A stretch of DNA of 48,742 nucleotides from Burkholderiales bacterium (GTDB lineage: Bacteria > Pseudomonadota > Gammaproteobacteria > Burkholderiales > SG8-41): NCBI GenBank assembly GCA_030684405.1, contig JAUXYA010000025.1:1-48742 (forward strand). Reading direction: 5' to 3'. The notes under the pieces were generated by a model. The model ran no database searches and was not told where the DNA came from. It saw only the letters and a list, made by a program, of their open reading frames with translations. How positions within the stretch are numbered: the first letter of the stretch is position 1; each line of letters opens with the position of its first letter. Both the position numbers and the translations under genes were made by a program. This document shows, in pieces, positions 6,960-45,467 of this stretch.

Positions 6960-6995
6960 CCATGTAACATCTTCCGGCAGCGACTGCCTTGCCCT

Positions 6996-7035
6996 GCGGC
7001 CTCCATTACAAACCGGCCGTTAATATTATTTTTTT
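6996..7035 (+). terminator. Weak terminator-like hairpin after the sulfotransferase gene
   Basis: GCGGCC (6996-7001) pairs with GGCCGT (7015-7020, one G-U pair) around a 13-nt loop. A run of seven T's (7029-7035) follows in an AT-rich stretch. The T-run begins 8 nt after the stem, too far for a strong intrinsic terminator, so this may only attenuate transcription. The next gene has a good ribosome-binding site (AGGAAAG, 7041-7047) just beyond it. Confidence 0.3.
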
Positions 7036-7053
7036 ATTTCAGGAAAGCCACCG

Positions 7054-7962: not shown

Positions 7963-7965
7963 GTC

Positions 7966-8673
7966 ATGAGTATGTCCCACAACACGGATAACGCCACGGA
8001 AAAGCAGAAGGCAAGGTACGATTCGGGCTATTTCACGGCTTACCGGAATGACCCCAAGCGCGAAGCGATGTACGTCTCCGAGCGCAAACGGATCTGCAAT
8101 CTAAAACCATCTGGCGGACGCATACTGGACGTGGGCTGCGGTTTGGGTGGATTTCTTGCCGGCTTCTCTCCGGAGCAATGGCAACGCCACGGAATTGAAA
8201 TATCAGAATTGGCTGCGAATGAAGCGCGTAAGGCCGGGATTCAGGTCAATGACTTCGAAAAAGCCTACGAATATCCCGATGAATACTTTGATGTCATCAC
8301 GTTCCGGGGATCGTTGCAACTTATTCCCACCCCGTTTGCGGTAATCCAGACTTGCATAAAGCTGCTTGTTCCCGGCGGAATTCTGGTGTTCCTGGCCACA
8401 CCCAACTCCAACAGCCCCTACTATCGTCGATTCAAAACATTGCCTTTTCTGACCCCGCACGGCAATTTTTTGATTCCCTCGGACATCATGATGCGCAACG
8501 CATTGCAAAATTTCGGCATGCTAATCATTGAAATCAACTATCCATACCTGGAAACTCCTTATGCCCGACCGATATCGGACCACTTGAAATTTCTGATGAG
8601 TTATTTCGGAATCAAAAAAAAATTTGCCTTCTGGAGAAGCTCGATGGAAATTTACAGTGAGAAGCCGAGATGA
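7966..8673 (+). CDS. Class I SAM-dependent methyltransferase
   Basis: 235 residues. Motif I is RILDVGCGLGGFL (52-64) and the post-motif segment LVPGGILVFLATPNS is typical of Methyltransf_11/23 proteins. The N-terminus (YDSGYFTAYRNDPKREAMY) resembles methyltransferases of glycan clusters. A second ATG two codons in is an alternative start. It sits 3 nt after another methyltransferase and 6 nt before the second DUF4910 gene, so it belongs to the same transcription unit. The acceptor is unknown. Confidence 0.82.
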   Translation: MSMSHNTDNATEKQKARYDSGYFTAYRNDPKREAMYVSERKRICNLKPSGGRILDVGCGLGGFLAGFSPEQWQRHGIEISELAANEARKAGIQVNDFEKAYEYPDEYFDVITFRGSLQLIPTPFAVIQTCIKLLVPGGILVFLATPNSNSPYYRRFKTLPFLTPHGNFLIPSDIMMRNALQNFGMLIIEINYPYLETPYARPISDHLKFLMSYFGIKKKFAFWRSSMEIYSEKPR

Positions 8674-8679
8674 ACCATC

Positions 8680-21619: not shown

Positions 21620-21638
21620 AGCTCCGCATCCTTCCCCG

Positions 21639-23162
21639 ATGACTGCGCCCATCCACTCACCCTCGCACGGACTTGCCCGCAACGCCGGCTGGAACCTGCT
21701 GGGCGCCGCGCTGCCACTGCCGGTCGCACTGTTGTGCATTCCATTGCTGGTGGCCGCACTCGGCGTGGACCGTTTCGGCGTACTGGGGCTGGCGTGGGTG
21801 GTCATGGGCTACTTCGGCATGTTCGATTTCGGCCTCGGCCAGAGCACCACCCGGCTGGTGGCCCAGAGGAAGGCATCGCAGGATCTGCGCACGCTGATGC
21901 TGAATTCGCTGCTGCTGCATGCGGCGCTGGGCTTGCTCGGGGGTGCGGCATTCGCGGCACTGGTTCCGTGGCTTGCCACCCGGGCATTCGAGGTACCACC
22001 GGAGCTGGTCGGCGAAACCACCCATGCCCTCTACTGGCTGGCGGCCTCGGTGCCGGCCATCGTCATCTCGGCGGCACTGCGCGGCATGCTGGAGGGCCTG
22101 CACCGCTTCGATATCGTGAATCTGGTGCGCATTCCCGCAGGCATCGTCAATTTCGCCGGGCCGGTGATCGCGCTGCAGTTCGCCGACGGCCTGCCCGCGG
22201 CCGTTGCGGTGATTGCGGTGGCCCGTTTTGTGGTGGTCCTCGCCTATGCCGCAGCCTGCCTGCGCCTGCTGCCCGCAAAAACCGGGACAACCCGCATCGA
22301 AGGCGCGCTGCTGCGGCGACTCGCGTCCTATGGCGGCTGGCTGACGGTGTCCAACTTCGTCAACCCGCTGATCATCGTCACCGACCGCTTCGTGGTGGCC
22401 GCAGCGGTATCGGTCGCTGCGGTGGCTTATTACGTAACCCCTTATGAGGTCATCACCAAGACCTGGATCATTTCGGCCAGCGTGCTGGGCGCGTTGTTCC
22501 CGGTACTGTCTGCCGCGGCGGCGGACAAACCGGCTGCGCTGCGCGGCATCTGCCGGCAGGCTGAAACCGTCCTGCTCTGCCTTGCCGCACCCGTCGTGGC
22601 GGTGCTCCTTGCCGGCTCCGACCTGCTGCTGGAGCTGTGGCTGGGGACAAGTTTCCGCGAGCAGTCGACGGTTGTCGCGCAGCTGCTGGCTATCGGCATT
22701 CTGGTCAACGTCGTCGCCCAGGTGCCGCTTACCGCGCTGAACGCCTCGGGACGCGCGGATCTCTCCGCAAAAATCGCGGCTGTGGAACTGCCGCTCTATG
22801 TGGTGGCAATCTGGTACGGGGCGCATGCCTGGGGCATCAATGGCGTTGCCGCAGTCTGGGCCCTGCGCGCGGCAATCGATGCCGTCCTGCTGTCTGCGGC
22901 GGCCCATGCCACGCTGCCGCCGGGTGATGCCGGGGCACCGCGCGGACTGACTGCAGTCAACCTCCTGCTGCTGGGCGGCTTTCTGCTCGCATTCTGGCTG
23001 ATCGGCATGCTGCTGCCCGGCTCATGGCTGCTGCGCGCGATGCTGGTCGGCACATTGCTTGCAGCGCTGCTGGTGTGGGAGTGGCATCGCGTGCTGAACG
23101 CCGATGATCGCAAGACAATACTGGCGCTATATGCCCGTCTTGCCGGAAAATCGGCGGCATGA
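21639..23162 (+). CDS. wzx: Wzx-type polysaccharide flippase (MOP/PST family)
   Basis: 507 residues from ATG 21639; a start 13 codons upstream would overlap the previous gene. The protein is highly hydrophobic, with about 12-14 membrane helices. The N-terminal RNAGWNLLGAALPLPVAL and FGVLGLAWVVMGYFGMFDFGLG are typical of lipopolysaccharide flippases, as is the TDRFVVAAA region in the middle. It moves undecaprenyl-pyrophosphate-linked repeat units to the periplasm. It overlaps the next glycosyltransferase gene by 4 nt (ATGA). Confidence 0.9.
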   Translation: MTAPIHSPSHGLARNAGWNLLGAALPLPVALLCIPLLVAALGVDRFGVLGLAWVVMGYFGMFDFGLGQSTTRLVAQRKASQDLRTLMLNSLLLHAALGLLGGAAFAALVPWLATRAFEVPPELVGETTHALYWLAASVPAIVISAALRGMLEGLHRFDIVNLVRIPAGIVNFAGPVIALQFADGLPAAVAVIAVARFVVVLAYAAACLRLLPAKTGTTRIEGALLRRLASYGGWLTVSNFVNPLIIVTDRFVVAAAVSVAAVAYYVTPYEVITKTWIISASVLGALFPVLSAAAADKPAALRGICRQAETVLLCLAAPVVAVLLAGSDLLLELWLGTSFREQSTVVAQLLAIGILVNVVAQVPLTALNASGRADLSAKIAAVELPLYVVAIWYGAHAWGINGVAAVWALRAAIDAVLLSAAAHATLPPGDAGAPRGLTAVNLLLLGGFLLAFWLIGMLLPGSWLLRAMLVGTLLAALLVWEWHRVLNADDRKTILALYARLAGKSAA

Positions 23163-24170: not shown

Positions 24171-25610
24171 ATGTCCGTCAACAAAGTCCTGGGCGCACTG
24201 AAAATACTGCTGGTGATGGCAATCGCTGCCATTGTTGGCACGCTGATTGCGGCAACGTTTCAACACTACAGCGGGTCCGCGTTGACGCTGGCAGCTTTCC
24301 ATATTTCTTATCTCCTGCTACTTGGACTGGCCTTTCCACGCCCCCGCCTGTATTTCTATACCTTCCTTGCTGGCTTCCTGTTCCTGGGTTTCTGGCCGAA
24401 AGCGGCGATTCAAACCATCTGGAACGTCGGGTTCATCGATCCCGTCGGCAGCTTTGCCGGGAGCGCGGCGGAATGGGATGCCGCCCTTTGGGCCGCCATC
24501 GCCGGAGCCGGCGGTGTCATGGTGGCACGGCTGATCCATCTGGCGCTTGCAGGCCGCCGGAACGAAAGCCCCCCGGAAACACCACAACTACCACCCGACT
24601 GGTATCCCCGTTACCGGCGCTGGATCTGGTCGGCAACGCTGATTCTGGTCGTCGTGGTGAACGGACTGAATTTCCATTTCTCTTTTTTCCAGATCGGCGT
24701 AAACCCGAAACTCATTCTCCCGTTCAGGCTCAACGTGCCGGTCGCGTGGCTGGTCAATGTCGGTTTTGCGTTCTGGATCTCCGCACTCGTGCATTGGGAA
24801 CGATTGATGCCAAAGCCAAGCTTGGCAAGAGCTCTCGTGGCGCCAATCGTTGAAGCCTTTTTTTCTTCAGTTTGCGCTCTAAGCCGCCTGACCTACCTTC
24901 TGCATACCCTGCCCTACTGGCTCGCTCTTTGGGAAAAATGGGTTGCGCTTCGCGGGCAAATGGCGAAACGTAACCTCGGCTTGCTTTTCGCCACCTTCAT
25001 TATCTTGTTTGTAATCAGCATTTATGCCGTTTTCTGGCTTCGCATAAACATTTACTACTACGTGCCGCCGACCGATTCCGTGACCACGCAAGCCCACAGA
25101 ACCATGGCTTTTCAGCTTCCCCATCTTTTTGTTCAGCGCTGGGTAGGTCTTGAGGGCACTCTGGTCGTTGGCGCAGCGACAGATCGTGGCACAGACCGTC
25201 TGGCCGAAGTGCTGACAACCGATCCAGCCGAGGGCGCGCTGTCGCTGTATCAGCGACTCGCAAAAGTTCACTTTCTGTCGGAGAACCCGGACAAGTTCAC
25301 TTTTCTTGCCAATGCAGGAATCGTTGCGATTCTTCTTTTTTCAGGCTCGTTGGCAGTCGTGTTTCTCGGAATGGTTTTTGTTACCGCCTTGATGATTACC
25401 ACCGAAACCTGCATCACCAGACTGCTGGCCAATGACTTCTTTCGTGCAATGGCCGGCGCATCGCTTGCCAACGTGGTCGCGCAGACCACCTTTCCCTACC
25501 TGACCCTGATTTTTTTCCTGCAGCTGTGCGTGGCCATCGCTTTTCTTGCATGGCTGCAACGGCTGAAAGTTACGGACCTGAGGGCGCTGTTGCTGCGTAG
25601 AGGCGCATAG
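24171..25610 (+). CDS. Polytopic membrane protein, candidate Wzy polymerase
   Basis: 479 residues with about 10 hydrophobic segments (for example 11-29, 39-54, 60-75, 105-125, 152-166, 190-207, 269-291, 380-409, 440-462). A soluble loop at about 296-375 carries RWVGLEG (323-329), and similar large loops with a functional Arg are a feature of Wzy polymerases. No HN-type ligase motif is present. Position right after a Wzx and a GT2 gene supports a Wzy role, but the family is not recognised with certainty. The 67-bp gap upstream is AT-rich and may hold a promoter. It converges on the - strand gene at 25657 with a 46-bp gap that has no clear terminator. Confidence 0.5.
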   Translation: MSVNKVLGALKILLVMAIAAIVGTLIAATFQHYSGSALTLAAFHISYLLLLGLAFPRPRLYFYTFLAGFLFLGFWPKAAIQTIWNVGFIDPVGSFAGSAAEWDAALWAAIAGAGGVMVARLIHLALAGRRNESPPETPQLPPDWYPRYRRWIWSATLILVVVVNGLNFHFSFFQIGVNPKLILPFRLNVPVAWLVNVGFAFWISALVHWERLMPKPSLARALVAPIVEAFFSSVCALSRLTYLLHTLPYWLALWEKWVALRGQMAKRNLGLLFATFIILFVISIYAVFWLRINIYYYVPPTDSVTTQAHRTMAFQLPHLFVQRWVGLEGTLVVGAATDRGTDRLAEVLTTDPAEGALSLYQRLAKVHFLSENPDKFTFLANAGIVAILLFSGSLAVVFLGMVFVTALMITTETCITRLLANDFFRAMAGASLANVVAQTTFPYLTLIFFLQLCVAIAFLAWLQRLKVTDLRALLLRRGA

Positions 25611-30638: not shown

Positions 30639-31364
30639 ATGCCCGACATTGACCCGATTGCAGCACGCTATCTTGGCGCAGACTACCTGCGCGACAACCC
30701 GTCCTGGGACAGCGAAGATTCACCGTGGAAAGCCGGCAAGGTGCGTGAACTGCTCGAGGGCAATGCAATCGCTCCGGCATCGGTGGTCGATGTCGGATGC
30801 GGAGCCGGCATCGTGCTGGCGGAACTGCAGAAAAGCTGGCACTCGGCGCGTTATGCCGGTTATGACATTGCCCCCGACGCCGAGCGTTTCTGGGCAGCAC
30901 CCCGTGCACGCGGTATAGAACTGGTCGTCGGCGACTTCCTTGACGCTGCCACGCCGGTGTATGACGTCCTGATGGCCCTCGATGTGCTGGAACACCTGCA
31001 GGATCCGTTCGCCTTCCTGGCCCGACTCAAGGGCAGGGCCAACCATTACGTATTCCACTTCCCGCTGGACCTGTCTGCAATCAGTGTCCTGCGCGAATCG
31101 CCGCTGTTGCATGTGCGGCGAAAAGTCGGGCATGTTCATTACTACACCCGGGGCCTGGCCACGGCGCTGCTTGAGGACTGCGGCTACCACATCGTCGACG
31201 CCCGATATACCGGTGCGGCCTTCACCGCGCCTCAGCGTTCCCTCAAGACCTGGCTTGCCAGCCTGCCCCGCCGCGTTGCGCGCGTGGTGAACCCGGACTG
31301 GGGAGTCCGCCTGTTCGGAGGGGAAACGCTGATGGTCCTCGCAAGCTGCAAGGCGACCGATTGA
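30639..31364 (+). CDS. Class I SAM-dependent methyltransferase
   Basis: 241 residues. SVVDVGCGAGIVLAEL (48-63) is the SAM-binding motif and LMALDVLEHLQDP is the motif-IV-like segment of UbiG/Methyltransf_23-type enzymes. It heads the + strand unit of region D and its stop overlaps the TTG start of the next gene by 4 nt (TTGA). The acceptor is unknown. Confidence 0.82.
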   Translation: MPDIDPIAARYLGADYLRDNPSWDSEDSPWKAGKVRELLEGNAIAPASVVDVGCGAGIVLAELQKSWHSARYAGYDIAPDAERFWAAPRARGIELVVGDFLDAATPVYDVLMALDVLEHLQDPFAFLARLKGRANHYVFHFPLDLSAISVLRESPLLHVRRKVGHVHYYTRGLATALLEDCGYHIVDARYTGAAFTAPQRSLKTWLASLPRRVARVVNPDWGVRLFGGETLMVLASCKATD

Positions 31365-32395
31365 GCCTGATCATTCACGCCCCGAACGTGCACCGGGGGG
31401 GCGGCCGAACGCTGCTGCTCAGCCTGCTGCAGGCGACCGCCCGGTCAGGAGGCTGCCTGGTTCTGGCCGACGATCGTCTCGCAACACTCCCGCTTCCGGA
31501 GAACACCGAGGTCATCAGGTTTCCGCCCAGCGTTGCCGGCAGGCTCGCTGCGGAACGATTCCTGCGGGCACGCGCGCAGCCGGCCGACGTGGTGCTTTGC
31601 ATGGGCAATCTGCCACCCTTGTTTCAGCTGCGTGCGCGCCGCACGGTACTTTTCATCCAGAACCGCTACCTGCTGGACGCGGTCGACACTTCCGCGTTCG
31701 ACGCAATCGTGCGCCTGCGCATCGCCATTGAGCGACTATGGCTGCGCCGCACAATCAGCCGCGTGCAGCAGATCCTCGTGCAATCCCCATCCATGGCGGA
31801 TGCGGTGCATCGTTGCCTTGACATCAGGTCTGAAGTAGCGCCGTTCGCACTCCTTGATTCCGGACACACTGCCCCGGTAACAAAAGACAGTCCCGGGGAT
31901 GCCGGCACAGCCGGATTCCTGTACGTCGCTTCCGGCGAGCCGCACAAGAATCACCGGCGACTGGTGGAAGCCTGGCTGCTACTGGCCGAAGCCGGCATCC
32001 GGCCCCTGCTGCGACTGACCCTGAACACCGCTCATCATCCCGAACTTGCCGCGTGGATCACTGCCTCCAGCGAGCATTCCGGACTGCGCATCGAAAATTC
32101 AGGGGAGGTCAGCCCGGAACAGCTTGCGCGGCTGTACAAAGAATCTGCCGCGCTGATTTACCCCTCACTGACCGAATCGCTCGGACTGCCTTTGCTCGAA
32201 GCGCGTGCACACGGACTGCCGATCATCGCTTCTGAACGCGATTTCGTGCGTGATATCGTAACTCCACGCGAAACCTTTGATCCCGAATCGGCGCAGTCCA
32301 TTGCACGCGCGGTCCGTCGTTTTCTCGGCGCTGACGAAGCCGGCCTGCAGATCAGGACGCCAGCGGAGTTCCTTGATCTGGTGCGGGGCGGCTGA
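31361..32395 (+). CDS. Family 4 (GT-B) glycosyltransferase
   Basis: 344 residues from a TTG start overlapping the previous stop (TTGA). The C-terminal domain shows YKESAALIYPSLTESLGLPL followed by EARAHGLPIIASE, the E-x7-E motif of GT4 retaining transferases. The N-terminal APNVHRGGGRTLLLSLL holds the Gly-rich donor/acceptor loop. It adds one sugar to the lipid-linked repeat in the cytoplasm. Confidence 0.87.
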   Translation: MSLIIHAPNVHRGGGRTLLLSLLQATARSGGCLVLADDRLATLPLPENTEVIRFPPSVAGRLAAERFLRARAQPADVVLCMGNLPPLFQLRARRTVLFIQNRYLLDAVDTSAFDAIVRLRIAIERLWLRRTISRVQQILVQSPSMADAVHRCLDIRSEVAPFALLDSGHTAPVTKDSPGDAGTAGFLYVASGEPHKNHRRLVEAWLLLAEAGIRPLLRLTLNTAHHPELAAWITASSEHSGLRIENSGEVSPEQLARLYKESAALIYPSLTESLGLPLLEARAHGLPIIASERDFVRDIVTPRETFDPESAQSIARAVRRFLGADEAGLQIRTPAEFLDLVRGG

Positions 32396-32424: not shown

Positions 32425-34827
32425 ATGAACTACGTTTTCCCGGCCGCACTGATGGCCAATACCTTCTCGGTCACCGGGCTGATGATCATCCTCGGCCTCG
32501 CCGGCGAACCGGTGATGGCCGCGGATTTCGGCATCGTGCACGGCGCAACCGTGGCCCTCCTCTACTCCTTTTCGGCCAACGCCCGCAGCATCATCCTCAA
32601 TCCCGCATCGGCCATTTCGACGGGCGCCATCCTCGGCTCCCGGCTGCTGTTGCTGCTGCCATTGGGTCTGTCGTCACTGTGGCTGAGCACGAACCTGGGC
32701 AGCGTCGGCGCGGCGCTCGCCCTCGCGCTGATCGTCCGGCGTTGTGCCGAATGGATTGCCGAAGTGCATGTCAGCCAGATGGAAGCCTCGCGGGAAGTGC
32801 TCCCGGCGAAACGTTTCCTGGTCGTGCAGGGCGCCCTGTTTCCGGTAACGGCCGCGTCGCTGGTCACCGGGCTGCCATTTGCACTGCCGGTATTGTTCGC
32901 CTGGGCCACCTCACCGCTCTGGCTGAGCCTCCGCTTCGTGCTGCAGCAGGCTGACATCCGGTCCACTGCCGCCGGACACTGGCTGCAGTTGCTGCCGCAT
33001 TTCGGATCAACAGCAATCATCGGCATTTCGGTTTATGTCTTCCGCCTGCTGATCCTGCTGCTGGTCGGCAAAGCGGTTGCCGGGGATCTCTATACGGCAT
33101 TTGCGATCGGCGGCCTGCTGGGATCGGTGTTTGCGCAGGCAATCGGTCCCACGCTGGTGCTGCAGGAAACCCGCGGCACCGCCCGGGGATTTCCGGCCTG
33201 GATCCGGATTGTGCTCGCGGCGGCAACCGCAGCGGGATTGGCGCTCTATGCGCTGGCCGGCGCCAGCCCACAGTGGCTGGATCTCGCCGGAAAATCGGCC
33301 CTCTTCTGGCAGGCCGCGGGCCTTTCGCTCGTCGGCGGCGCCATCATGGTCATCGCCCAGCAGCTGCGGCTGCGGATGCTCCAGCAACAGGCAAACAGTG
33401 ACGTCTTCGGGCCGGATGTGCTGATGAACATCCTGATCGTGGCAGCGGTGCCTTATTCCTTTTATCTGTTGGGGCTCAATGCCCTCGCAGCCCTCTACCT
33501 GCTGAATGCCATGCTGGCGCTGCTGTTTTATTTCAGCGCGGGCACCGGCATCCGGGCATCGATGAAGGCGGAGGGTGCCGCGAACCGGCGTATCAGGACA
33601 ACCATCGCACTCCTGCTGGTGCTGCCGCTTTTTTTCCAGTTGAGCGGGACGATTTTCAGGGACACCACCTACCTGTTCAACTCCGAAGGCAATCTGATGC
33701 TGTTGCCGATACCGGTTTCCGTGCTGGCCTGTTACGGCGGCATTCTGCTGCTGGGGCACTACGCCCGGGCCCGCCTGGCCCTGACACTGATCTTCGCCAC
33801 ATTTGCACTGATGCTGGTCACCAGTGTTCTTCTCGCCCATGTGCAGGCCGGACAGGAACAGGCAAAACTGATCCTTCTGATCCAGTTCGTGCTGCCGATG
33901 TTCGCCCTGGTCCTCGGGCAGTTGCATGGCGAAGACACGACGGCTCAGCCAATCGTCCCGGTATGTTTTCTGTGGGTGCTGGCCATCCTGGTGCCGGTCC
34001 AGTTGCTCTTAACCTGGTCAGAGTCCTCGTGGATACTGTCGCCCTCTTACGTGGTGTTCAGCGCCTACCAGCATCTGCAGTATGTTCCGGCGATGTTTGT
34101 GGCGGCTTATCTGGTGGCGCTGTATGCGCTTTGGGACATGCCCCGCTACCGCATGCTGCTGCTGGTGCTGGGGGCGCCGATGGGCATGTACGCCGGCGCC
34201 TCCGTCTCGGCACTGGCAACGGCAGGGCTGGTTGCCGGAGTCGCCGCTTTTGGCTTGCTTGCCTGGCGACGCGGCGGACAGGGCAGGCCGCTGCTGGTTC
34301 TGGTGGTGACAGTCCTGATCTGCGCGATCGGTTATTTCTCGATGGCCTCAGGCAGGATGGGGCCCCGGTACGACCTGATCCGGCTCCAGACCGACACTGC
34401 AGTGTTTGCCCCGAAAAATCTGGCCCAGCGCATCGCCTACTGGAAATTCTATACAGGAGAAATCCTCGCCAGTCCCAGAAGTGCCGTGCTGGGCCATGTC
34501 GCCCCTCCGGACCGGACCAAGTACCCCAGCGCCCACAATTACTACCTCGACTTCGCCTACAACTTCGGCATCGTGCCGCTGCTGCCGCTGCTGGGACTGA
34601 TCGGCTTGACCCTGCTGGGGGTGCGCCGGAAATGGCAGGCCGTCAAATCATCCATGCCGCTGCTGGGCCTGACCGCAGTGGTACTTTTTCTGGTGCTGGT
34701 CGATAATTCGTTCAAGGTGGGCATGCGCCAGCCCTATCCGGGCATCCTGACCTTTTTCCTCTGGGGAATTCTGCTGAGTCATCTCTTCAAGCCTTCAACA
34801 CCGGCCCGCGGGCAGGCCCCCGCATGA
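32425..34827 (+). CDS. Wzx-Wzy fusion candidate: flippase-like domain joined to O-antigen polymerase/ligase domain
   Basis: 800 residues in one frame, highly hydrophobic throughout. Residues 1 to about 385 look like a PST/MOP flippase, with segments such as DLYTAFAIGGLLGSVFAQAI (221-240) and QQLRLRMLQQQ (312-322). The part from about 390 to 800 is a Wzy_C/WaaL-like domain: MGPRYDLIRL (645-654), then NLAQRIAYWKF, then the hallmark SAHNYYLDFAYNFGIVPLLP (702-721) with the conserved H-N and G. The switch between halves lies near the basic RRIRTT (388-393). It would flip and polymerise or ligate the same repeat unit. Each half is about the minimum length for its family. The alternative is a flippase domain with unrelated membrane extension, but the HN motif argues against that. 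Confidence 0.72.
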   Translation: MNYVFPAALMANTFSVTGLMIILGLAGEPVMAADFGIVHGATVALLYSFSANARSIILNPASAISTGAILGSRLLLLLPLGLSSLWLSTNLGSVGAALALALIVRRCAEWIAEVHVSQMEASREVLPAKRFLVVQGALFPVTAASLVTGLPFALPVLFAWATSPLWLSLRFVLQQADIRSTAAGHWLQLLPHFGSTAIIGISVYVFRLLILLLVGKAVAGDLYTAFAIGGLLGSVFAQAIGPTLVLQETRGTARGFPAWIRIVLAAATAAGLALYALAGASPQWLDLAGKSALFWQAAGLSLVGGAIMVIAQQLRLRMLQQQANSDVFGPDVLMNILIVAAVPYSFYLLGLNALAALYLLNAMLALLFYFSAGTGIRASMKAEGAANRRIRTTIALLLVLPLFFQLSGTIFRDTTYLFNSEGNLMLLPIPVSVLACYGGILLLGHYARARLALTLIFATFALMLVTSVLLAHVQAGQEQAKLILLIQFVLPMFALVLGQLHGEDTTAQPIVPVCFLWVLAILVPVQLLLTWSESSWILSPSYVVFSAYQHLQYVPAMFVAAYLVALYALWDMPRYRMLLLVLGAPMGMYAGASVSALATAGLVAGVAAFGLLAWRRGGQGRPLLVLVVTVLICAIGYFSMASGRMGPRYDLIRLQTDTAVFAPKNLAQRIAYWKFYTGEILASPRSAVLGHVAPPDRTKYPSAHNYYLDFAYNFGIVPLLPLLGLIGLTLLGVRRKWQAVKSSMPLLGLTAVVLFLVLVDNSFKVGMRQPYPGILTFFLWGILLSHLFKPSTPARGQAPA

Positions 34828-34840
34828 TGGAAGCCCTGTC

Positions 34841-36064
34841 TTGAGGCTGCTCATCGTCACCCAGTACTTCTGGCCGGAGGCGTTTCGCGTCAATGACCTT
34901 GCGCTCGGGCTGAAATCCCTGGGACACGAAGTGGAAGTGCTGACCGGCATGCCGAACTATCCGCAGGGCAGCCTGTTCCCCGGCTACGGCTGGCTGCGGC
35001 CGGCCAGCGAAGAATTTGAAGGCATCCGCGTGGTGCGCGTGCCGATGGTGACGCGCGGACGCAGCAAGGGCTTGCGCCTGGCGCTGAATTACCTGTCCTT
35101 CGCCGTCATGGCGAGCCTGCTGGGGCCGCTGCGCTGCCGGGGGCGTTTCGATGCCGTGCTGATTTTCCAGCCCTCGCCGGTCACCATCGGACTGCCCGGT
35201 CTGCTGATGTCAGCGATCAAGAAAGCCCCGGCGCTGATCTGGATCCAGGATCTGTGGCCGGACACGCTGGAGGCCATGGGATTCCGCCGCTCCGGCATTC
35301 CCTTCCGGGTCGCGGCATGGCTGTCGGATTTTGTCCATCGCCGTTGCGAGCGGGTGCTGGCACAGTCGCGGGCTTACATTCCGCGGATCGAGGCGCGCGG
35401 TGTGGCGCCATCGCGCATCGCCTACCTGCCGAACTGGGCCGAATCGTTTTATCGCCCGCTGTTCCCGCAGGAAAACATCGCAGACCCGATGGCGCAGATC
35501 CGCGGCTTCAGGGTGGTGTTCGCCGGCAACATCGGCAGCGCGCAGGCCTTCGACACCATCATCGGTGCCGCGCGGGAGTTGCAGCATGTAGAGGACCTGC
35601 ACTGGGTCGTGCTCGGTGACGGCAACATGAAGGCGTGGCTCGAGGCGGAAATCGCCCGCCACGGACTCGGGCAGCGGTTTCACCTGCCCGGCCGGCGTCC
35701 GCCGGAGGACATGCCGGCGTATTTTGCGCACGCCGATGTGCTTCTGGTAACCTTGCGCTCCGATCCGGTTTTCTCATTGACGATACCCAGCAAAATCCAG
35801 TCGTATCTGGCATGCGCAAAGCCGGTCGTCGCATCACTGGACGGCGAAGGTGCGGCCATCATGCGGGAGTGCGGGGCGGGTGCGGTCTGTTCCGCTGAAG
35901 ATGTTCCCGGACTTGCCTCCGCCGTGCTCGCTGTCCATCGCATGACCCCGCAGGAAAGGGTGGCCTGCGGGATGCGCGGCCGGAAATATTACGAAGACAA
36001 TTTTGAGCGCACCCTGCTGCTGAACCGGCTCGACGAATGGATCAAACAACTGGCTCGAAATTGA
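34841..36064 (+). CDS. WbuB-like GT4 glycosyltransferase (L-amino-sugar transferase)
   Basis: 407 residues from a TTG start. The N-terminus QYFWPEAFRVNDLALGL and EVLTGMPNYPQG is the recognised signature of the WbuB/WcaI-type GT4 subfamily, whose WbuB members transfer L-FucNAc or related L-sugars. FAHADVLLVTLRSDPVFSLTIPSK and the YEDNF tail are also typical. The three genes that follow make a UDP-L-amino sugar, a natural donor for it. It ends 1 nt before the next gene. Confidence 0.82.
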   Translation: MRLLIVTQYFWPEAFRVNDLALGLKSLGHEVEVLTGMPNYPQGSLFPGYGWLRPASEEFEGIRVVRVPMVTRGRSKGLRLALNYLSFAVMASLLGPLRCRGRFDAVLIFQPSPVTIGLPGLLMSAIKKAPALIWIQDLWPDTLEAMGFRRSGIPFRVAAWLSDFVHRRCERVLAQSRAYIPRIEARGVAPSRIAYLPNWAESFYRPLFPQENIADPMAQIRGFRVVFAGNIGSAQAFDTIIGAARELQHVEDLHWVVLGDGNMKAWLEAEIARHGLGQRFHLPGRRPPEDMPAYFAHADVLLVTLRSDPVFSLTIPSKIQSYLACAKPVVASLDGEGAAIMRECGAGAVCSAEDVPGLASAVLAVHRMTPQERVACGMRGRKYYEDNFERTLLLNRLDEWIKQLARN

Positions 36065-36065
36065 C

Positions 36066-36935
36066 ATGCGCATACTGATACTCGGCGGCGACGGCATGCT
36101 GGGACACCGGCTGCTGAAGGACCTCTCGCAGACACATCAGGTGCGGGTGACGCTGCGCCAGGAGCGCCATGCCTACAGCCAGTTCGCGCTGTTCACCGAG
36201 GAAAATTCCTATACCGGGGTCGATGTGCGGGTGACCGACCGCCTGGTCAGTGTGCTGGCGGACTTCCATCCCGAGGCGGTGATCAACGCCGTCGGCGTGG
36301 TCAAGCAGCGCAAGGACGGGCTGGACCCGATCCCCAATCTCGAAATCAACGCCCTGCTCCCCCACCGGCTCGCGGCGCTGTGCAAGGCCATCCGGGCGCA
36401 CCTGATCCACATCAGCACCGACTGCGTGTTCTCGGGTCGCACCGGCGGTTACGCCGAAAACGACCAGCCCGACCCCATCGATGTTTACGGGCACAGCAAG
36501 CTGCTCGGTGAAGTCACCGCCGACGGCTGCATCACCCTGCGCACCTCGATCATCGGCCCGGAACTGTGGCGCCGGACCAGCCTGCTGGAATGGTTTCTGG
36601 CCCAGAAAGGCCGGGCCCTGGGCTACCGGAACGCCATTTTCTCCGGCCTGACAACTCTCGAGATGGGCCGGATCATGGAGCGGCTGGTGACGAATTTCCC
36701 GCAGTCCGCCGGCATTTACCACGTGTCCAGCCAGCCCATCAGCAAATTCGAACTGCTGACGCTGATCCGCGACAAGTTCGGCCTGTCGATCGAACTGGCG
36801 CCCGATGACGCCTTCCACTGCGACCGCAGCCTGAACTCCGAGCGTTTCCGCAGGAACTTCAACTACGAGCCGCCGACCTGGGCGCAGATGATTGACGAAT
36901 TGGCGGCAGACCACCGTTCCAGAAAGGCATCATGA
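36066..36935 (+). CDS. RmlD-like NAD(P)-dependent 4-keto reductase of a UDP-L-amino-sugar pathway
   Basis: 289 residues. The Rossmann loop is GGDGMLGH (7-14), the SDR active site is YGHSK (Tyr141, Lys145), and STDCVFSG (117-124) carries the Ser. It sits between the WbuB-like transferase and the WbjB-like dehydratase. CapF/FnlB enzymes of L-FucNAc synthesis have an extra C-terminal cupin (about 370 residues in all) that does the C3 epimerisation. This protein lacks the cupin, like WbvR/QnlB of the UDP-L-RhaNAc/L-QuiNAc route. It overlaps the next gene by 4 nt (ATGA). Confidence 0.82.
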   Translation: MRILILGGDGMLGHRLLKDLSQTHQVRVTLRQERHAYSQFALFTEENSYTGVDVRVTDRLVSVLADFHPEAVINAVGVVKQRKDGLDPIPNLEINALLPHRLAALCKAIRAHLIHISTDCVFSGRTGGYAENDQPDPIDVYGHSKLLGEVTADGCITLRTSIIGPELWRRTSLLEWFLAQKGRALGYRNAIFSGLTTLEMGRIMERLVTNFPQSAGIYHVSSQPISKFELLTLIRDKFGLSIELAPDDAFHCDRSLNSERFRRNFNYEPPTWAQMIDELAADHRSRKAS

Positions 36936-37999
36936 TGTTCAAGGGCAAGACCATACTCGTCACCGGCGGCACCGGATCCATGGGCAAGACCTTCGTGCGC
37001 CGCGTGCTCTCGGGCGAACTGGGCAAACCGAAGAAGGTGATCGTGTTCTCGCGCGACGAGGCCAAGCAGCATGAAATGCGCATTTCGTACCTGCACCGCA
37101 CGGTGACCACGGACGAGGTCATCTTCCGCAATTTCATGGACGTGCTGGAGTTCCGCATCGGCGACGTGCGTAATTTCGCCGAGGTCTGTTCGGCGGTGAA
37201 AAATGCCGACATCGTGGTCAACGCCGCGGCGCTGAAACAGGTACCCACCTGCGAATACTTCCCGGCCCAGGCCATCGCCACCAACTGCCTCGGCGCGATG
37301 AACATCGTGCGCGCAATCGAGGAAAACAGCTACCCGGTCGACACCGTCATCGGCATCAGCACCGATAAGGCCTGCAAACCCGTCAACGTGATGGGCATGA
37401 CCAAGTCGCTGCAGGAGCGGATTTTCATTTCTGCCAACGTGCTGAACCCGAAGACGCGTTTCATCTGCGTGCGTTACGGCAACGTGCTGGCCTCGCGTGG
37501 CTCGGTGATTCCGCTGTTCCATGACCAGATCCGCGCCGGCGGCCCGGTCACCCTGACCGTGCCGGAAATGACCCGCTTCCTGCTGACCCTGGACCAGGCC
37601 GTCGACACCGTGTTCACCGCGCTGAAGGAAGCGAAACGCGGCGAGACCTATGTCCCGAATGCACCGGCCGCAACCGTGGAGAACATCGCCAAGGCGCTGA
37701 TCGGCAAGCGCCCCGTCAAGACCAGGATCACCGGTATCCGCCCCGGCGAAAAAATGCACGAAATCATGGTGTCCGACGAAGAGGCTCACTACTGCGTGAA
37801 ACGGGGCGACTATTACGCGATCCTGCCGATGCTGCCGGAACTGGCGCCGCGCGGCGGCAAACCGAAACCTGCCCTGCGCAAGGAATTCAGTTCGGGCGAC
37901 ACCGTGCTGGATCTCGCCGGAACCATCGCTCTGCTCAAGCGCCATCGCCTGATGGTTGACGATGTCGAATCCGGCAACGGCCTTGAGCTGTTGCGCTGA
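36932..37999 (+). CDS. wbjB: WbjB/FnlA-type UDP-GlcNAc 4,6-dehydratase/5-epimerase
   Basis: 355 residues. The N-terminal GTGSMGKTFVRRVLSGELGK and VIVFSRDEAKQHEMRISY are the recognised signature of WbjB/CapE/FnlA enzymes. GISTDKACKPVNVMGMTKS carries the Ser and the Met-x3-Lys active site in place of Tyr-x3-Lys. It converts UDP-GlcNAc to the UDP-4-keto-6-deoxy-L-sugar that the neighbouring RmlD-like reductase acts on. Both ATG codons at the start (ATGATG) are usable. Confidence 0.93.
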   Translation: MMFKGKTILVTGGTGSMGKTFVRRVLSGELGKPKKVIVFSRDEAKQHEMRISYLHRTVTTDEVIFRNFMDVLEFRIGDVRNFAEVCSAVKNADIVVNAAALKQVPTCEYFPAQAIATNCLGAMNIVRAIEENSYPVDTVIGISTDKACKPVNVMGMTKSLQERIFISANVLNPKTRFICVRYGNVLASRGSVIPLFHDQIRAGGPVTLTVPEMTRFLLTLDQAVDTVFTALKEAKRGETYVPNAPAATVENIAKALIGKRPVKTRITGIRPGEKMHEIMVSDEEAHYCVKRGDYYAILPMLPELAPRGGKPKPALRKEFSSGDTVLDLAGTIALLKRHRLMVDDVESGNGLELLR

Positions 38000-40317: not shown

Positions 40318-41400
40318 ATGAAAGTGCTGTCAATATTCGGAACCCGTCCTGAAATGATCAAGATGTGGTCCACCCTGAACAAGCTCGACGAACTCAATTT
40401 CGAGCACATCATGGTACACACGGGACAGAACTTCACACCCGAACTGAAGGACTTTTTCTTCCGCGACCTGAAGCTGCGCAAGCCTGATTACGAGCTCGGC
40501 ATCGACACCAGCAGCTACGGCAAGGAAGTGGCGGACGTGGTTGCAAAATCCGACGCGCTGATGGCAAAAATAAAGCCCGACGCCCTGCTGATCCTCGGCG
40601 ACACCTACAGCGGGCTTTCGGTGATGCCGGCCTCGTACCGCGGCATCAAGGTCTTTCACATGGAAGCCGGCCTGCGCGCCTGGGACAAACGCATGCCCGA
40701 GCAGCGCAACCGCATCCTGATCGACCACATGAGCGATTACCTGCTGCCGTTCAACCAGTATCACCGCGAAAACCTGATGCGGGAGAACATCCACCCATCG
40801 AAGATTTTCATCACCGGCAACCCGACATTCGAGGCGATGCGCGCGTTCATGCCGCAGATAAAAAAAAGCAACATCCTCAAGAAACTCGGCCTTGCTCCGA
40901 AAGACTATTTCATCGTCACCGCACACCGCAGTGAAAACGTCGACAACCCCGTGCACAGGGATGCGATCATCCAGGCGCTGGGCGAGCTTTACCGGAAATT
41001 CAAGCGCGAGGTCATCTACCCGATGCACCCGCGCACCAAGAGCAAGATCGGCAACACCCGTCTGCCCAAGGGCGTACGCGTGATGGAGCCACTGGGCTTC
41101 TATGATTTCAACCGCCTGATGCAGAGCAGTTTCTGCATTCTGTCGGATTCCGGAACCGCGCCCGAGGAAGCCTATTTCTACAAGATCCCCTGCGTCAGCC
41201 TGCGCATGACCACCGAACGGCCGGAAACCGTGGAAGGCGGCGCGCATATCGTTGCTGGCATGGACGCGCAAAACATTGCTGCAGCAGTGGAGACAGCCAC
41301 GTCGAACAAGTGGACCGGCAAATACGACCTGGAAGAGAATTTCGAGCCGTCGACCGTGGTCGTCAACGTGATCCGCAGCCGGATCACCAATTTCTTCTGA
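40318..41400 (+). CDS. wbjD: Non-hydrolysing UDP-sugar C2-epimerase (WbjD/FnlC type)
   Basis: 360 residues. GTRPEMIKM (8-16), FHMEAGLRAWD, TAHRSENVD and SDSGTAPEEA match the UDP-GlcNAc 2-epimerase family. In the WbjBCD or WbvBRD route this is the final step, inverting C2 to give UDP-L-FucNAc or UDP-L-QuiNAc. It is separated from the first two enzymes by wbpV and the C-methyltransferase gene, an unusual arrangement. The gap to the previous gene is 43 nt. Confidence 0.88.
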   Translation: MKVLSIFGTRPEMIKMWSTLNKLDELNFEHIMVHTGQNFTPELKDFFFRDLKLRKPDYELGIDTSSYGKEVADVVAKSDALMAKIKPDALLILGDTYSGLSVMPASYRGIKVFHMEAGLRAWDKRMPEQRNRILIDHMSDYLLPFNQYHRENLMRENIHPSKIFITGNPTFEAMRAFMPQIKKSNILKKLGLAPKDYFIVTAHRSENVDNPVHRDAIIQALGELYRKFKREVIYPMHPRTKSKIGNTRLPKGVRVMEPLGFYDFNRLMQSSFCILSDSGTAPEEAYFYKIPCVSLRMTTERPETVEGGAHIVAGMDAQNIAAAVETATSNKWTGKYDLEENFEPSTVVVNVIRSRITNFF

Positions 41401-41454
41401 TCCGCAGCCGTCAACGGCATTGAATGATTCAGCGCAGCGGAGGTCTTGCCGTTG

Positions 41455-42438
41455 ATGTCCGGAACCGGATCCGCACCGATACTGTCATTTGCCGTGGCCA
41501 GCGGGCTCGTCTGGTGGCTGGCCACGCGGGCGGCACGACGGCTTCCTGTCGATACGCCGAATGAGCGGTCGCTGCATTCGACGCCGGTTCCGCGCGCGGG
41601 CGGCATCGGGCTTCTGGGGGGATTCTGTACTGCGGCGGTCCTGATCGCACCGGGGCTGCCGGCAACATTGTGGGTTGCCGTTGCCCTGCTGATTGCCGTG
41701 TCGCTGGTCGATGATTTCAGGGCGCTGCCGGCGAGCCTGCGGCTGGCTGCCCATTTGTTCGCAGCGGCGATTTTTTCGGTTCCGCTGCTGATCGGCGACT
41801 ATGGCCTCATGGTTGCCGTCCTGATGACACTTGCCGCGGGCTGGATGATCAATCTTTACAATTTCATGGACGGCTCCGACGGTCTGGCAGGCGGCATGGC
41901 CGTATCAGGCTTCACGTTTTTTGCGATCGCCGCCGCACTCGACGGCAATGCTGACTTCGCCCTGCTCAACGCCAGCCTCGCCGCCGCCGCTGCGGCCTTC
42001 CTGCTGTTCAACTTCCACCCCGCGCGGATTTTCCTGGGCGACGCCGGTTCGGTGCCGCTGGGCTTTCTCGCTGCAGCCTTTGGTCTGATCGGCTGGCTCA
42101 ACAGCCACTGGCCGTGGTGGTTCCCCCTGCTGGTGTTCTCACCGTTCATCGTGGATGCCAGCGTAACCCTGGCTCGCCGCCTGCTCTCCCGGGCACGTGT
42201 GTGGGAAGCGCATCGGGATCACTACTACCAACGCCTGGTGCGCCTCGGCCTGGGACACCGCAACACCGCGCTTGCCGAATATGCGCTGATGGCGGCATGC
42301 GGGGTTGCCGGGCTATGGGCGATGAAGATTTCCCCCGCATCCCAGCTGACTGTTCTGGCCGCGGTTGCCGCCGTTTACTTGGCGCTGATCGGGACCATTG
42401 AGCACATCTGGCGCAAAAGGCCTGCCGGCGATGTTTAG
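41455..42438 (+). CDS. wbpL: WbpL-like polyprenyl-phosphate HexNAc-1-phosphate transferase
   Basis: 327 residues from ATG 41455; CGGAGG at 41438-41443 is 11 nt upstream, whereas a TTG at 41446 would be too near it. A polytopic MraY/WecA-family enzyme: NLYNFMDGSDGLAGG and FLGDAGSVPLGF are the signature cytoplasmic loops, and ERSLHSTPVPRAGG is the N-terminal one. It starts glycan assembly by transferring the sugar-1-phosphate to undecaprenyl phosphate, here probably from UDP-D-QuiNAc or similar made by WbpM/WbpV. It overlaps wbpM by 8 nt. Confidence 0.9.
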   Translation: MSGTGSAPILSFAVASGLVWWLATRAARRLPVDTPNERSLHSTPVPRAGGIGLLGGFCTAAVLIAPGLPATLWVAVALLIAVSLVDDFRALPASLRLAAHLFAAAIFSVPLLIGDYGLMVAVLMTLAAGWMINLYNFMDGSDGLAGGMAVSGFTFFAIAAALDGNADFALLNASLAAAAAAFLLFNFHPARIFLGDAGSVPLGFLAAAFGLIGWLNSHWPWWFPLLVFSPFIVDASVTLARRLLSRARVWEAHRDHYYQRLVRLGLGHRNTALAEYALMAACGVAGLWAMKISPASQLTVLAAVAAVYLALIGTIEHIWRKRPAGDV

Positions 42439-44242
42439 TATCCGCACCCTGCTCGCGATCCTGCACGATCTGATGGCGGTGGCGCTGTCATGGATACTGG
42501 CCTACTGGCTGCGATTTAATCTCGAGTTGCCGGAGCCGTACGACGCCCAGGCTTTTGACTCGGTGTTATGGGTGGTTCCGCTGTATGCGGCACTCTTTTT
42601 CATGTCGGGCCTTTATCGCGGCATCTGGCGCTTTGCCAGCCTGCCGGATCTGAAACGCATCATCCTCGCGGTGGCGGCCGGCGCACTCGCGGTACCGGCA
42701 ATGCTGTTCATGCTGCAATTGATCGTGCCGCGCTCCGTGCTGGTCATGAGCCCGCTGCTGCTGGTGATGATCATGGGCGGCAGCCGGCTCGTCTACCGCG
42801 CATGGAGGGAATACCGCTTCGGCGGCACACTGCCAGCCAGCCGGGAGCCCGTCGTCGTACTGGGTGCCGCCGACGCTGCGGCGAGCCTGATCAAGGATCT
42901 GGCGCGCAGTCCGCAGTGGCAGGTCATCGGCGTGTTCGACGACAACCGCACGCACCACGGACGGCAGATTCACGGCGCGATGGTCTACGGCGCAATTGGC
43001 GATTTGCCACAGTTTCAACCGAAATTGAAAGCGCAGCGTGCCATTGTCGCGATGCCCGAAGCTGGCCATCGTGAACGGCGGCGTGCGGTCGAAATCGCCC
43101 GCACCGCCGGCTTGCAGGTGCTGACCGTGCCCTCCTACGATGATCTGATCAGCGGCCGGGTTACGGTGTCGCAGATCCGCAATGTCGAACTCGACGACCT
43201 GCTGGGCCGGGACCCGGTGCAGCTTGACGCCACCGGGCTCCACGAATGGCTGGGCCAGCAAGTCGTGCTGGTTTCGGGCGCCGGTGGTTCGATCGGTTCC
43301 GAACTGTGCCGACAGGTCGCACGTTATCAGCCGCAACGCATCGTGCTGCTGGAGAACAGCGAATTCTCGTTGTACAGCGTGGAGCAGGAGTTCGCGCAGC
43401 GCTTTCCGGACATTACCATCACGCCGGTGATCGGCAGCGTCGGTGACCCGCGACAGGTAAACCATATACTCGCGACGTACCGTCCGACCGTGGTGTTCCA
43501 CGCCGCCGCCTACAAACATGTGCCGCTGATGGAAAACGGGAATGCCTGGCAGGCAGTGCTTAACAACGTGCTCGGCACACGCGTACTGGCCGAAGCAGCG
43601 ATTGCGCATGGTGTGAAAAAGTTCGTATTGATATCCACCGACAAGGCGGTGAACCCGACCAATGTGATGGGTGCCACCAAGCGGCTCGCGGAGCTGGTTT
43701 GCCAATCGCTGCAGCGTCTGGAGGGCACCCGCTTCGTGATCGTGCGTTTCGGCAACGTGCTGGGCTCCACCGGCAGCGTGATCCCGAAATTCCGCGAGCA
43801 GATCGCCGCCGGCGGCCCGGTGACGGTCACTGATCCGGAAATCACCCGCTATTTCATGTCGATTCCGGAGGCGGTGCAGCTGGTGATGCAGGCCGGTCTG
43901 ATGGGTAATGGCGGCGAGATTTTTGTGCTCGACATGGGCGAGCCGGTGAAAATCGCCGACCTCGCGCGCGACATGATCCGCCTCTCGGGTTTTCAGGAAA
44001 ATGAGATCCGGATCGTCTACACCGGACTGCGCCCCGGCGAAAAACTCTATGAAGAGGTCCTCGCGGCCGACGAAAATTCGTTGCCGACGCCGCACCCGAA
44101 GCTGCGCATCGCGCAGGTGCGCCCGGCCGATCCGGCCATGCTGGCGCAGCTGTTCTCCTGGCTTGAGCGTTCCGACCAGCTCGATGCGGATGCTGTAAAG
44201 ACGGATCTTTCGCGGTGGTTGCCCGAGTACAGCCGGCGCTAG
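42431..44242 (+). CDS. wbpM: WbpM-type UDP-GlcNAc 4,6-dehydratase
   Basis: 603 residues from ATG 42431 (8-nt overlap ATGTTTAG). About four N-terminal membrane helices (1-115) are followed by a Rossmann-like nucleotide-binding domain (VVLGAADAAAS, near 142) and the C-terminal SDR domain with GAGGSIGSE (283-291), STDKAVNPTNVMGATK (402-417; Ser, Met and Lys in place of Ser-Tyr-Lys). This is the standard full-length WbpM/FlaA1/PglF plan. It makes the UDP-4-keto-6-deoxy-GlcNAc that WbpV reduces. Confidence 0.95.
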   Translation: MFSIRTLLAILHDLMAVALSWILAYWLRFNLELPEPYDAQAFDSVLWVVPLYAALFFMSGLYRGIWRFASLPDLKRIILAVAAGALAVPAMLFMLQLIVPRSVLVMSPLLLVMIMGGSRLVYRAWREYRFGGTLPASREPVVVLGAADAAASLIKDLARSPQWQVIGVFDDNRTHHGRQIHGAMVYGAIGDLPQFQPKLKAQRAIVAMPEAGHRERRRAVEIARTAGLQVLTVPSYDDLISGRVTVSQIRNVELDDLLGRDPVQLDATGLHEWLGQQVVLVSGAGGSIGSELCRQVARYQPQRIVLLENSEFSLYSVEQEFAQRFPDITITPVIGSVGDPRQVNHILATYRPTVVFHAAAYKHVPLMENGNAWQAVLNNVLGTRVLAEAAIAHGVKKFVLISTDKAVNPTNVMGATKRLAELVCQSLQRLEGTRFVIVRFGNVLGSTGSVIPKFREQIAAGGPVTVTDPEITRYFMSIPEAVQLVMQAGLMGNGGEIFVLDMGEPVKIADLARDMIRLSGFQENEIRIVYTGLRPGEKLYEEVLAADENSLPTPHPKLRIAQVRPADPAMLAQLFSWLERSDQLDADAVKTDLSRWLPEYSRR

Positions 44243-44246
44243 GCCG

Positions 44247-45467
44247 ATGAGCGTCCTGGCATTGCCGCGTCAAATGGAGCGGACCGGGCGCTGGGCCGCC
44301 ATCGCGCTGGGCGCGTCGATCCCCGTATCGGTGGCGCTCGACAATGTACTGCTGCTGGTGATCCTGATCTGCTGGTTGGCCGGCGGGCGTTTTGCGGAGA
44401 AACGCGAGGCCAGCGGCAGCATCGTGTCCATCTGGGCGCTGATCCTGTTCGGTCTGCTGCTGCTCGGTACGCTGTGGGGTGATCAGTCGCCCGCCGATGC
44501 CCGGACTTATCTGCTCAAGTACCTAGACCTCGCCTTCATCCCCCTGTTCGCCTATTTTTTCCGCGATCCTGAAACCCGGCAGCAGGGCCTGTGGGTATTT
44601 GCGGGGTCGCTGATCCTGATGCTGCTGCTCTCCTTCATGATCAAGTTCGGTGTGATCGGGCAGGGCGCGATCATCCTGGGCAGTGACCTGTCACCGGTAG
44701 TCTTCAAGTTCCGCATCACCCATAACCTGCTGATGGCCTTCGCAGCATTCATGTTTGCGCTGATGGCGCTGGAAGCCGGAATGCGCAGGGATCGGATAAT
44801 CTGGGGCATTCTCGCCCTGCTGGCTGCCATCAATGTCACACTGATGGTGGAGGGAGCGACGGGTTATGTCGTCCTTGGGCTGCTTGCACTGCTGCTGATC
44901 CTGATCCGGTTGCCGGCACGGATCGCGATGGCGGCGATGGTCGCCCTCTTTGCAATCTCGGCGATCCTGGTCACCGTCCCCGGACCGCTGTCGCAGAGGG
45001 TCGCTTCGCTGGCCGGGGAGGTGCGCAACTGGAGCCCGGACACTGCGGCGCGCCATTCCTCCGCCGGTTTCCGCCTCGAGTTCTACAGCAACACGTTACG
45101 CATCGTCGCCGACCACCCGCTTACCGGCGTCGGCACCGGCGGCTTCCCGGACGCCTACGCCGAACAGGTCCGCGGCACGGCCATGGTGGCCACGCGTAAT
45201 CCGCACAACGAATACCTGCACATCGCGGCACAGATCGGCCTGGTCGGACTGGCGGCCATGCTGGCACTGTTCGCCGTGCAATGGCGCGCGGCCCGGCACC
45301 TGCCGACGCGCCTCGAGACCCATCTCGCCCGTGGACTGGTGGTAACCATCGCCGCCGGCTGCCTGTTCAACTCCTTCCTGCTCGACCATGCCGAGGGGCT
45401 GTTCTTTGCCTGGATGACGGGGCTGCTGTATGCGGGATTAAAATCCAGTGATTCAGTAAACAGGTGA
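44247..45467 (+). CDS. O-antigen ligase-family membrane protein (WaaL/Wzy-like)
   Basis: 406 residues, polytopic with about 10 hydrophobic segments. The large soluble loop contains FRLEFYSNTLRIV, DHPLTGVGTGGFPDAY and PHNEYLHIAAQIGLVGLAA (319-337), the Wzy_C domain with the conserved HN (320-321). This family contains both ligases and polymerases and the sequence alone cannot tell them apart. The fusion protein upstream is already a polymerase candidate, so a WaaL role joining O-antigen to lipid A-core is a reasonable guess. It starts 4 nt after wbpM. Confidence 0.85.
   Translation: MSVLALPRQMERTGRWAAIALGASIPVSVALDNVLLLVILICWLAGGRFAEKREASGSIVSIWALILFGLLLLGTLWGDQSPADARTYLLKYLDLAFIPLFAYFFRDPETRQQGLWVFAGSLILMLLLSFMIKFGVIGQGAIILGSDLSPVVFKFRITHNLLMAFAAFMFALMALEAGMRRDRIIWGILALLAAINVTLMVEGATGYVVLGLLALLLILIRLPARIAMAAMVALFAISAILVTVPGPLSQRVASLAGEVRNWSPDTAARHSSAGFRLEFYSNTLRIVADHPLTGVGTGGFPDAYAEQVRGTAMVATRNPHNEYLHIAAQIGLVGLAAMLALFAVQWRAARHLPTRLETHLARGLVVTIAAGCLFNSFLLDHAEGLFFAWMTGLLYAGLKSSDSVNR

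Follow-up and report, generated by a model that had tools for sequence, protein, structure and literature searches.

The gene at positions 32425-34827 (+) of the window, by which we mean the whole 48,742-nucleotide stretch of Burkholderiales DNA that was analyzed, encodes a single 800-aa chain that joins a flippase-like N-terminal half to a C-terminal half of the Wzy/WaaL superfamily. Flipping and polymerization of the O unit are normally performed by two separate proteins. We consider it somewhat probable that the gene product is a covalent Wzx-Wzy fusion of the O-antigen pathway, one protein that would both flip and polymerize, and we infer the two activities as well as the handover between the halves. 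Judged from sequence, the fusion is real and conserved and has an unrecognized N-terminal domain, and that domain is the weakest link in assigning both activities to one chain.

The frame begins with ATG, contains no internal stops, and ends with a stop codon at 34825-34827 (+). Residues 1 to 377 (32425-33555, +) are predicted to form about 12 transmembrane (TM) helices and resemble diverged MOP flippases by profile-profile comparison, with no Pfam match, and residues 393 to 800 (33601-34824, +) form the putative O-antigen polymerase of the Wzy/WaaL superfamily. Between them, residues 378 to 392 (33556-33600, +) constitute the fusion junction, a basic linker that is poorly conserved compared with both halves. 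On a topology drawn by eye, for which the helix cores of a low-confidence AF2 model were trimmed manually, 17 K and R residues lie inside and 2 outside, which would place the linker in the cytoplasm. The preliminary description had proposed an 800-residue single-frame fusion with a SAHNYYLD motif in its ligase-like half and a basic junction near residue 390. The single frame was confirmed and is shared by 16 full-length uninterrupted relatives, the motif is present at residues 702 to 709, and the basic stretch RASMKAEGAANRRIRT lies near residue 390 at the position expected of the cytoplasmic linker.

Distribution and gene neighborhood

The 16 relatives are approximately 36 to 74% identical to the window protein, and together with it they make 17 distinct full-length members, spread over nine families and two classes within a single phylum. 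Within the genus of the window and its kin, the fused gene was found in 9 of 61 genomes (its own counted), all of which fall within the 21 genomes of the genus. Wider sampling recovered at least five full-length members among 399 genomes of the order (the window's own genome, G000, and G006, G072, G345, and G118), with short or weak partial matches only in G167 and G195; at least four among 369 genomes of the class (G000, G652, G669, and G461), with at least three partial ones; and at least three among 398 genomes of the phylum (G000, G1131, and G807, of which G807 belongs to another class), again with at least three partial ones. In these three samples, scoring was limited to two candidates per genome, such that the counts are lower bounds, and as the genome samples overlap, the counts were left unsummed. 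The G461 frame is 808 aa long, and its one counted stop lies just beyond the frame end. A scan of genome contigs indicated one relative locus, L013, in a Betaproteobacteria MAG, and no relatives were found in plasmids or in phages. No independent MOP-Wzy fusion beyond the present family appeared among 166 frames of at least 600 aa in 215 loci.

Two relatives, G006 and G007, carry 1238-aa frames (L019:7730-11446 and L021:8287-12003) in which an N-terminal GT2 domain (PF00535, 6e-29 and 1.3e-28) precedes the flippase-like/Wzy fusion. By reading, the G003 frame leaves its contig in the corresponding region, past the part with a PF00535 match. Between G006 and G007, dN/dS was 0.12 for the GT2 domain and 0.17 for the GT2-flippase junction, the latter at 82.5% identity. 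On the sequence alone, the 1238-aa chain could alternatively start internally. Counted from the shared start, the G006, G007, and G003 proteins are 939 to 941 aa long compared with 800 aa in the window, and the approximately 140 extra residues lie in the loop before SAHNYY.

The fused gene sits within an O-antigen cassette. Immediately upstream is a GT4-type glycosyltransferase gene (31361-32395, +), which is the same neighbor in G019, in G016, and, by reading, in G807. The next cassette gene after the fused gene encodes a WcaI-like glycosyltransferase (34841-36064, +; NF007640, 6.6e-44, below its cut-off), followed by RmlD-like and PseB/FnlA-like genes (36066-37999, +; TIGR01214, 9.3e-29; TIGR03589, 7.9e-90; TIGR04130, 5.3e-75; all below cut-off), a UDP-GlcNAc 2-epimerase family gene (40318-41400, +; PF02350, E 4.4e-88), a methyltransferase gene, and an Epimerase_2 gene. 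The order continues with a WbpL-like Glycos_transf_4 gene resembling initiating transferases and a WbpM-like Polysacc_synt_2 dehydratase gene (together 41446-44242, +; PF00953, 1.1e-28; PF02719, 2.1e-119), a separate Wzy_C protein that is the putative WaaL ligase (44247-45467, +; PF04932, 7.9e-22), two GT2 genes, and another methyltransferase gene. We presume that the RmlD-like gene is FnlB and that the 40318-41400 gene is FnlC, and the labels WbpL, WbpM, and WaaL are likewise our assumption after comparable clusters. The cassette thus combines sugar genes with those for an initiating transferase and a ligase-type protein, the set by which a Wzx/Wzy-dependent-type O-antigen cluster is recognized, and much of its order recurs around the fused gene in relatives. 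Elsewhere in the window, a NeuB-family gene and two DUF4910/DUF2172 proteins (730-1860 and 4463-9975) perhaps mark a region for nonulosonic acid or a related modification.

Accompanying flippases and polymerase candidates

A canonical Wzx is also encoded in the window (21600-23162, +; PF01943, 1.1e-17), such that the locus may make two glycans, and another is found in the same genome at G000:C5. Elsewhere, a MOP gene lies directly upstream of the fused gene in G652 and within approximately 9 kb of it in G006, G007, G019, and G345. When the fused-carrying genomes other than G1131 and G807 were searched with a MOP profile, 11 of 15 gave a match, and the search, which was not exhaustive, gave none in G002, G003, G014, and G072. 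The single match in G669 was MurJ-like, and G016 gave MurJ and a weak partial match. The profile missed both the MurJ of G014 and a second MOP protein of that genome, which were found otherwise. By Pfam and NCBIfam, the second MOP protein of G014, the weakly matching protein of G016, and one protein of G003, each a weak match to a MurJ model, are of the MATE/DinF type and not Wzx. At the limited sensitivity of the MOP profile, G072, G014, G016, and G669 showed no MOP protein of the Wzx type; these genomes are 98%, 91%, 91%, and 99% complete. G002, G003, and G008 are 74%, 79%, and 79% complete, and absences there say little. By these searches, some genomes have no Wzx candidate other than the fused protein, and others do. 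The absence of Wzx in some genomes is weak evidence, as the same search missed the MurJ and the MATE protein of G014. A role as the sole flippase and polymerase of the window cluster was considered for the fused protein and dropped, as the canonical Wzx and f479, a polytopic membrane protein described below, are present.

The strongest alternative, which we regard as unlikely but worth weighing, is that the N-terminal half is MOP-like and non-transporting, with a docking or regulatory role, such that a separate Wzx flips and the fused protein only polymerizes. Such an arrangement is consistent with the canonical MOP proteins found inside or close to the cassette in the window, G006, G007, G019, G345, and G652, with the strong divergence of the N-terminal half, and with the existence of a stand-alone C-terminal half. 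The stand-alone gene (L031:2103-3584, -; G072:C22) lies in a second cluster of G072, which also has the full fusion; its product is nearest to the C-terminal half of the G072 fused protein (48.6%) and groups with G072 and G345 at 40% support. That tree position fits, and does not prove, a secondary loss of the N-terminal half. Against a non-transporting half stand the four genomes in which Wzx-type MOP proteins went undetected, with the limited sensitivity noted above, and the conservation of the half itself: its dN/dS is 0.15 to 0.22, and all 17 members keep seven charged residues (R54, R105, R207, R315, E109, E113, and D331).

That the C-terminal half is of the Wzy/O-antigen ligase superfamily, as had been proposed, was borne out. 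The Pfam model PF04932 (Wzy_C) matched the C-terminal half alone at E 1.3e-4 and 22.2 bits, below the curated cut-off of 31.7, and did not match the whole protein. A genome search with PF04932 gave 25.9 bits for the window protein and 31.7 for the G008 relative, which was counted as over the cut-off, and scanning nine members one by one gave a Wzy_C match (E up to 0.1) in one. In profile-profile comparison by hhalign, the C-half profile scored 63.1 against Wzy_C (E 2.9e-7 over 288 columns) compared with 20.6 and 24.5 for reversed controls. The same profile scored 68.5 against a polymerase set collected with TIGR04370, most of which falls below the TIGR04370 cut-off. We conclude that membership of the C-terminal half in the Wzy/WaaL superfamily is supported by homology at the profile level.

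We consider it improbable that the C-terminal half is a WaaL-like ligase or another transferase and that polymerization falls to f479 or to the separate Wzy_C protein. PF04932 covers ligases and polymerases both, and relatives of f479 (24171-25610, +; 479 aa) directly adjoin the fused gene in 5 of the 17 members (G345, G652, and G461 by HMM; G1131 and G807 by reading), are present in the G669 cassette, and occur next to the stand-alone C-terminal half of G072. Both points favor a ligase, and f479 is possibly an unrecognized polymerase or partner. However, no f479 was found within the 46 to 60 kb examined in G019, G016, G006, G007, and G118, and no profile match of f479 to the Wzy sets extended beyond 34 columns. 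Four f479 members matched no Pfam family, save for one weak MARVEL match below cut-off. The SAHNYY histidine, H704, is conserved in no more than 14 of the 17 members, which we count against a ligase.

A further argument against a ligase comes from the separate 44247 protein, which has counterparts in G019, G016, G002, G006, G003, G007, and G072. A WbpM search gave matches in 9 of 13 genomes, G014 among them. In the four sister genomes examined that lack the fused gene (G004, G005, G013, and G020), chosen for contigs that reach upstream, a counterpart follows WbpM, and an ABC-2 permease and ATPase are nearby (confirmed by Pfam in G004 and G020 and, for G005 and G013, recognized from similarity and the number of TM helices). 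ABC-exported O-antigen requires a ligase and no Wzy. As the 44247 counterpart occurs in ABC-exporter clusters, the most fitting assignment is WaaL for the 44247 protein and Wzy for the fused C-terminal half. We conclude from the separate WaaL-like gene that the C-terminal half is more likely a polymerase than a ligase.

The WbpL-WbpM-WaaL-like block is kept at the sister loci (L210, L211, L212, and L214) with the ABC-2 pair nearby, and an exporter swap at one O-antigen locus is possible. We also considered that a locus would have either the fused gene or an ABC exporter and dropped this idea, as G014 and G016 have an ABC-2 pair nearby as well as the fused gene. A separate 875-aa frame with GT2 and GT41 domains was observed in G013 (L213:13083-15707, -).

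Kinship of the N-terminal half and unity of the fusion

The N-terminal half had been described as an apparent flippase, to be judged by a match to MATE/MOP proteins, and that claim survived in part: direct searches failed, and sensitive profile-profile comparison gave a weak match. Pfam gave no match for residues 1 to 390, NCBIfam and PHROGs gave none for the fused protein, curated MOP/Wzx models (PF01943, PF13440, PF03023, and PF01554) did not match the N-terminal half, and HMMs built from Wzx proteins failed to detect single N-terminal halves. A MurJ HMM scored single halves, at a best E of 0.037, little better than reversed sequences, at 0.072. As the same Wzx HMM reached three MATE/DinF-type proteins at E 6e-6 to 2e-9, values that hold for a small sequence set, the N-terminal half is, by sequence comparison, further diverged from Wzx than MATE is.

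An hhalign comparison of the 17-member N-half profile with a combined MOP and MurJ profile (24 MOP rows and 8 of 27 MurJ rows) gave a score of 38.1, with E 3.3e-4 and Prob 38.5, the E value being that of a single pair, as for all hhalign values here, and not of a database search. The alignment spans residues 183 to 364, approximately TM7 to TM12, and places them on the corresponding second lobe of the MOP proteins. Control profiles scored 16.3 (Wzy), 15.6 (f479), 17.2 (MFS), and 15.4 (WbpL). When MOP profiles were shuffled in blocks of 20 columns, none of 100 reached 38.1 (best, 32.2), and in coarse blocks of 30 columns, 1 of 200 did (best, 41.7). The score varied with the reference, being 37.0 for a first Wzx set, 28.7 for a 24-row Wzx set, and 26.4 over 39 columns for MurJ alone, and with both Wzx-only sets, residues 183 to 374, approximately, aligned best to the first, homologous MOP lobe. 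The first lobe of the N-terminal half alone scored only 15 to 18 against three MOP/MurJ profiles and matched nothing. For scale, Wzx scored 97.6 against MurJ. The reference sets were taken from the best loci, of which a length filter kept 20 of the 21 Wzx, 22 of the 30 Wzy_C, all 27 MurJ, and 28 of the 30 MFS. The MOP profile is sound, as a PDB search with it recovers chains of WzxE (2e-27), of a teichoic acid flippase, of MurJ, and of further MOP transporters.

One of the seven invariant charged residues falls at a known position. From hhalign output counted by hand, R207 aligns with R250 of the window's own Wzx (507-aa form), a MOP column that is basic in 14 of 24 proteins (10 R and 4 K), and by profile alignment the R250 column corresponds to R239 of WzxE. 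In a WzxE study, R239 is reported as 100% conserved among WzxE, and R44, rather than R239, as critical in the assay (PMC11706664).

It is quite improbable that the N-terminal half is some other polytopic domain and no MOP relative at all. Such a domain would agree with the appearance of the kinship in profile-profile comparison only, at a Prob of about 40%, with the failure of MOP HMMs that reach MATE to reach the N-terminal half, and with AF2 models from a two-row alignment (window and L013) that gave about 12 helices at pLDDT 35.8 and 38.5, too low to assign a fold. Searches of PDB sequences with fused-protein profiles and with the 44247 protein gave nothing or chance matches. Against another domain, the MFS, WbpL, Wzy, and f479 profiles stay at 15 to 17 while MOP and MurJ reach 38, and the match covers a full lobe. 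We conclude that kinship of the N-terminal half with MOP proteins is moderately supported by the profile comparisons.

The two halves appear to have evolved together. Over 14 members, identity to the window protein was 39 to 73% in the N-terminal half, 35 to 77% in the C-terminal half, and 0 to 20% in the 15-residue linker; for the N- and C-terminal halves of G1131 and G807 it was 45/39% and 36/35%. In three pairs of relatives, dN/dS was 0.22, 0.19, and 0.15 for the N-terminal half and, in the same order, 0.18, 0.10, and 0.16 for the C-terminal half, which indicates that purifying selection acts on both. Over the 15 linker codons, dN/dS was 1.37 for the window-G008 pair, undefined for the second pair, and 0.25 for the third. 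Maximum likelihood trees of the two halves, built with no outgroup, have 10 of 14 bipartitions in common, and the four conflicting bipartitions on each side have at most 66% support. That an error of sequencing or assembly joined two genes, or that an internal start gives two proteins, is hardly credible: nothing was found in favor of an error and an internal start is compatible with the sequence, but GC3 is similar in the halves (0.79 N and 0.77 C), and purifying selection on both, agreeing trees, and 16 other uninterrupted frames exclude a missing stop codon between merged genes. We conclude from identity, dN/dS, and tree agreement together that there was probably one old fusion, which has been inherited as a unit.

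Proposed pathway and comparison with known systems

If the protein is a Wzx-Wzy fusion, glycosyltransferases would assemble the O unit on undecaprenyl diphosphate at the cytoplasmic side of the membrane, with the WbpL-like enzyme starting it; the MOP-like half would flip the unit; the Wzy half, held on its cytoplasmic linker as a tether, would polymerize units in the periplasm; and the separate WaaL-like protein would ligate the chain to lipid A-core. In the two relatives whose cytoplasmic N terminus carries a GT2 domain, sugar addition would be a further task of this chain. Slightly short of an even chance, in our estimate, is the broader proposal of a family for single-chain O-antigen assembly, in which one protein finishes, flips, and polymerizes the unit, with GT2-Wzx-Wzy and an enlarged periplasmic Wzy loop in one lineage. 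Some observations count against flipping and polymerization by one chain: there is a canonical Wzx in the window and there are MOP genes or ABC-2 pairs near the fused gene elsewhere, and the polymerase could instead be f479, which is found with the fused gene in several clusters.

The searches made of open-licence PMC full texts brought up no description of a Wzx-Wzy fusion, and in the portion consulted of one such text, Wzx and Wzy are treated as separate proteins (PMC12004945). It has long been asked whether Wzx, Wzy, Wzz, and the ligase assemble into a complex. A 2015 article has "Does the proposed protein complex really exist?" among its listed questions, with only the Wzy-Wzz interaction given as confirmed (PMC4863624). 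If the fused protein both flips and polymerizes, a natural Wzx-Wzy fusion in two classes would argue strongly that flippase and polymerase act next to each other in a 1:1 ratio, and it would offer structural work a single-protein target for handover of the flipped unit. The GT2-containing version would extend that coupling across the membrane to synthesis.

Compared with Wzx proteins of the MOP superfamily such as Escherichia coli WzxE (PDB 9g95), the N-terminal half is alike in its approximately 12 predicted TM helices, in its basic cytoplasmic loops and C end, and in its profile similarity at residues 183 to 364, with an Arg at the position of R239. It differs in that similarity is not seen at the level of Pfam, in that it is fused to a polymerase-type domain, and in that its first lobe is unmatched, such that a counterpart of R44 cannot be placed. 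Like Wzy polymerases and WaaL ligases, the C-terminal half matches the PF04932 superfamily at the profile level and has a SAHNYY-bearing loop; unlike them, it is preceded within its own chain by a 12-TM domain, and in three relatives the loop preceding SAHNYY is approximately 140 residues longer. Finally, the cassette has the same kinds of pathway neighbors as O-antigen clusters with separate Wzx and Wzy (an initiating transferase, a WbpM-like protein, and a WaaL-like protein), whereas here one gene would hold both functions, and two relatives add GT2 in frame.
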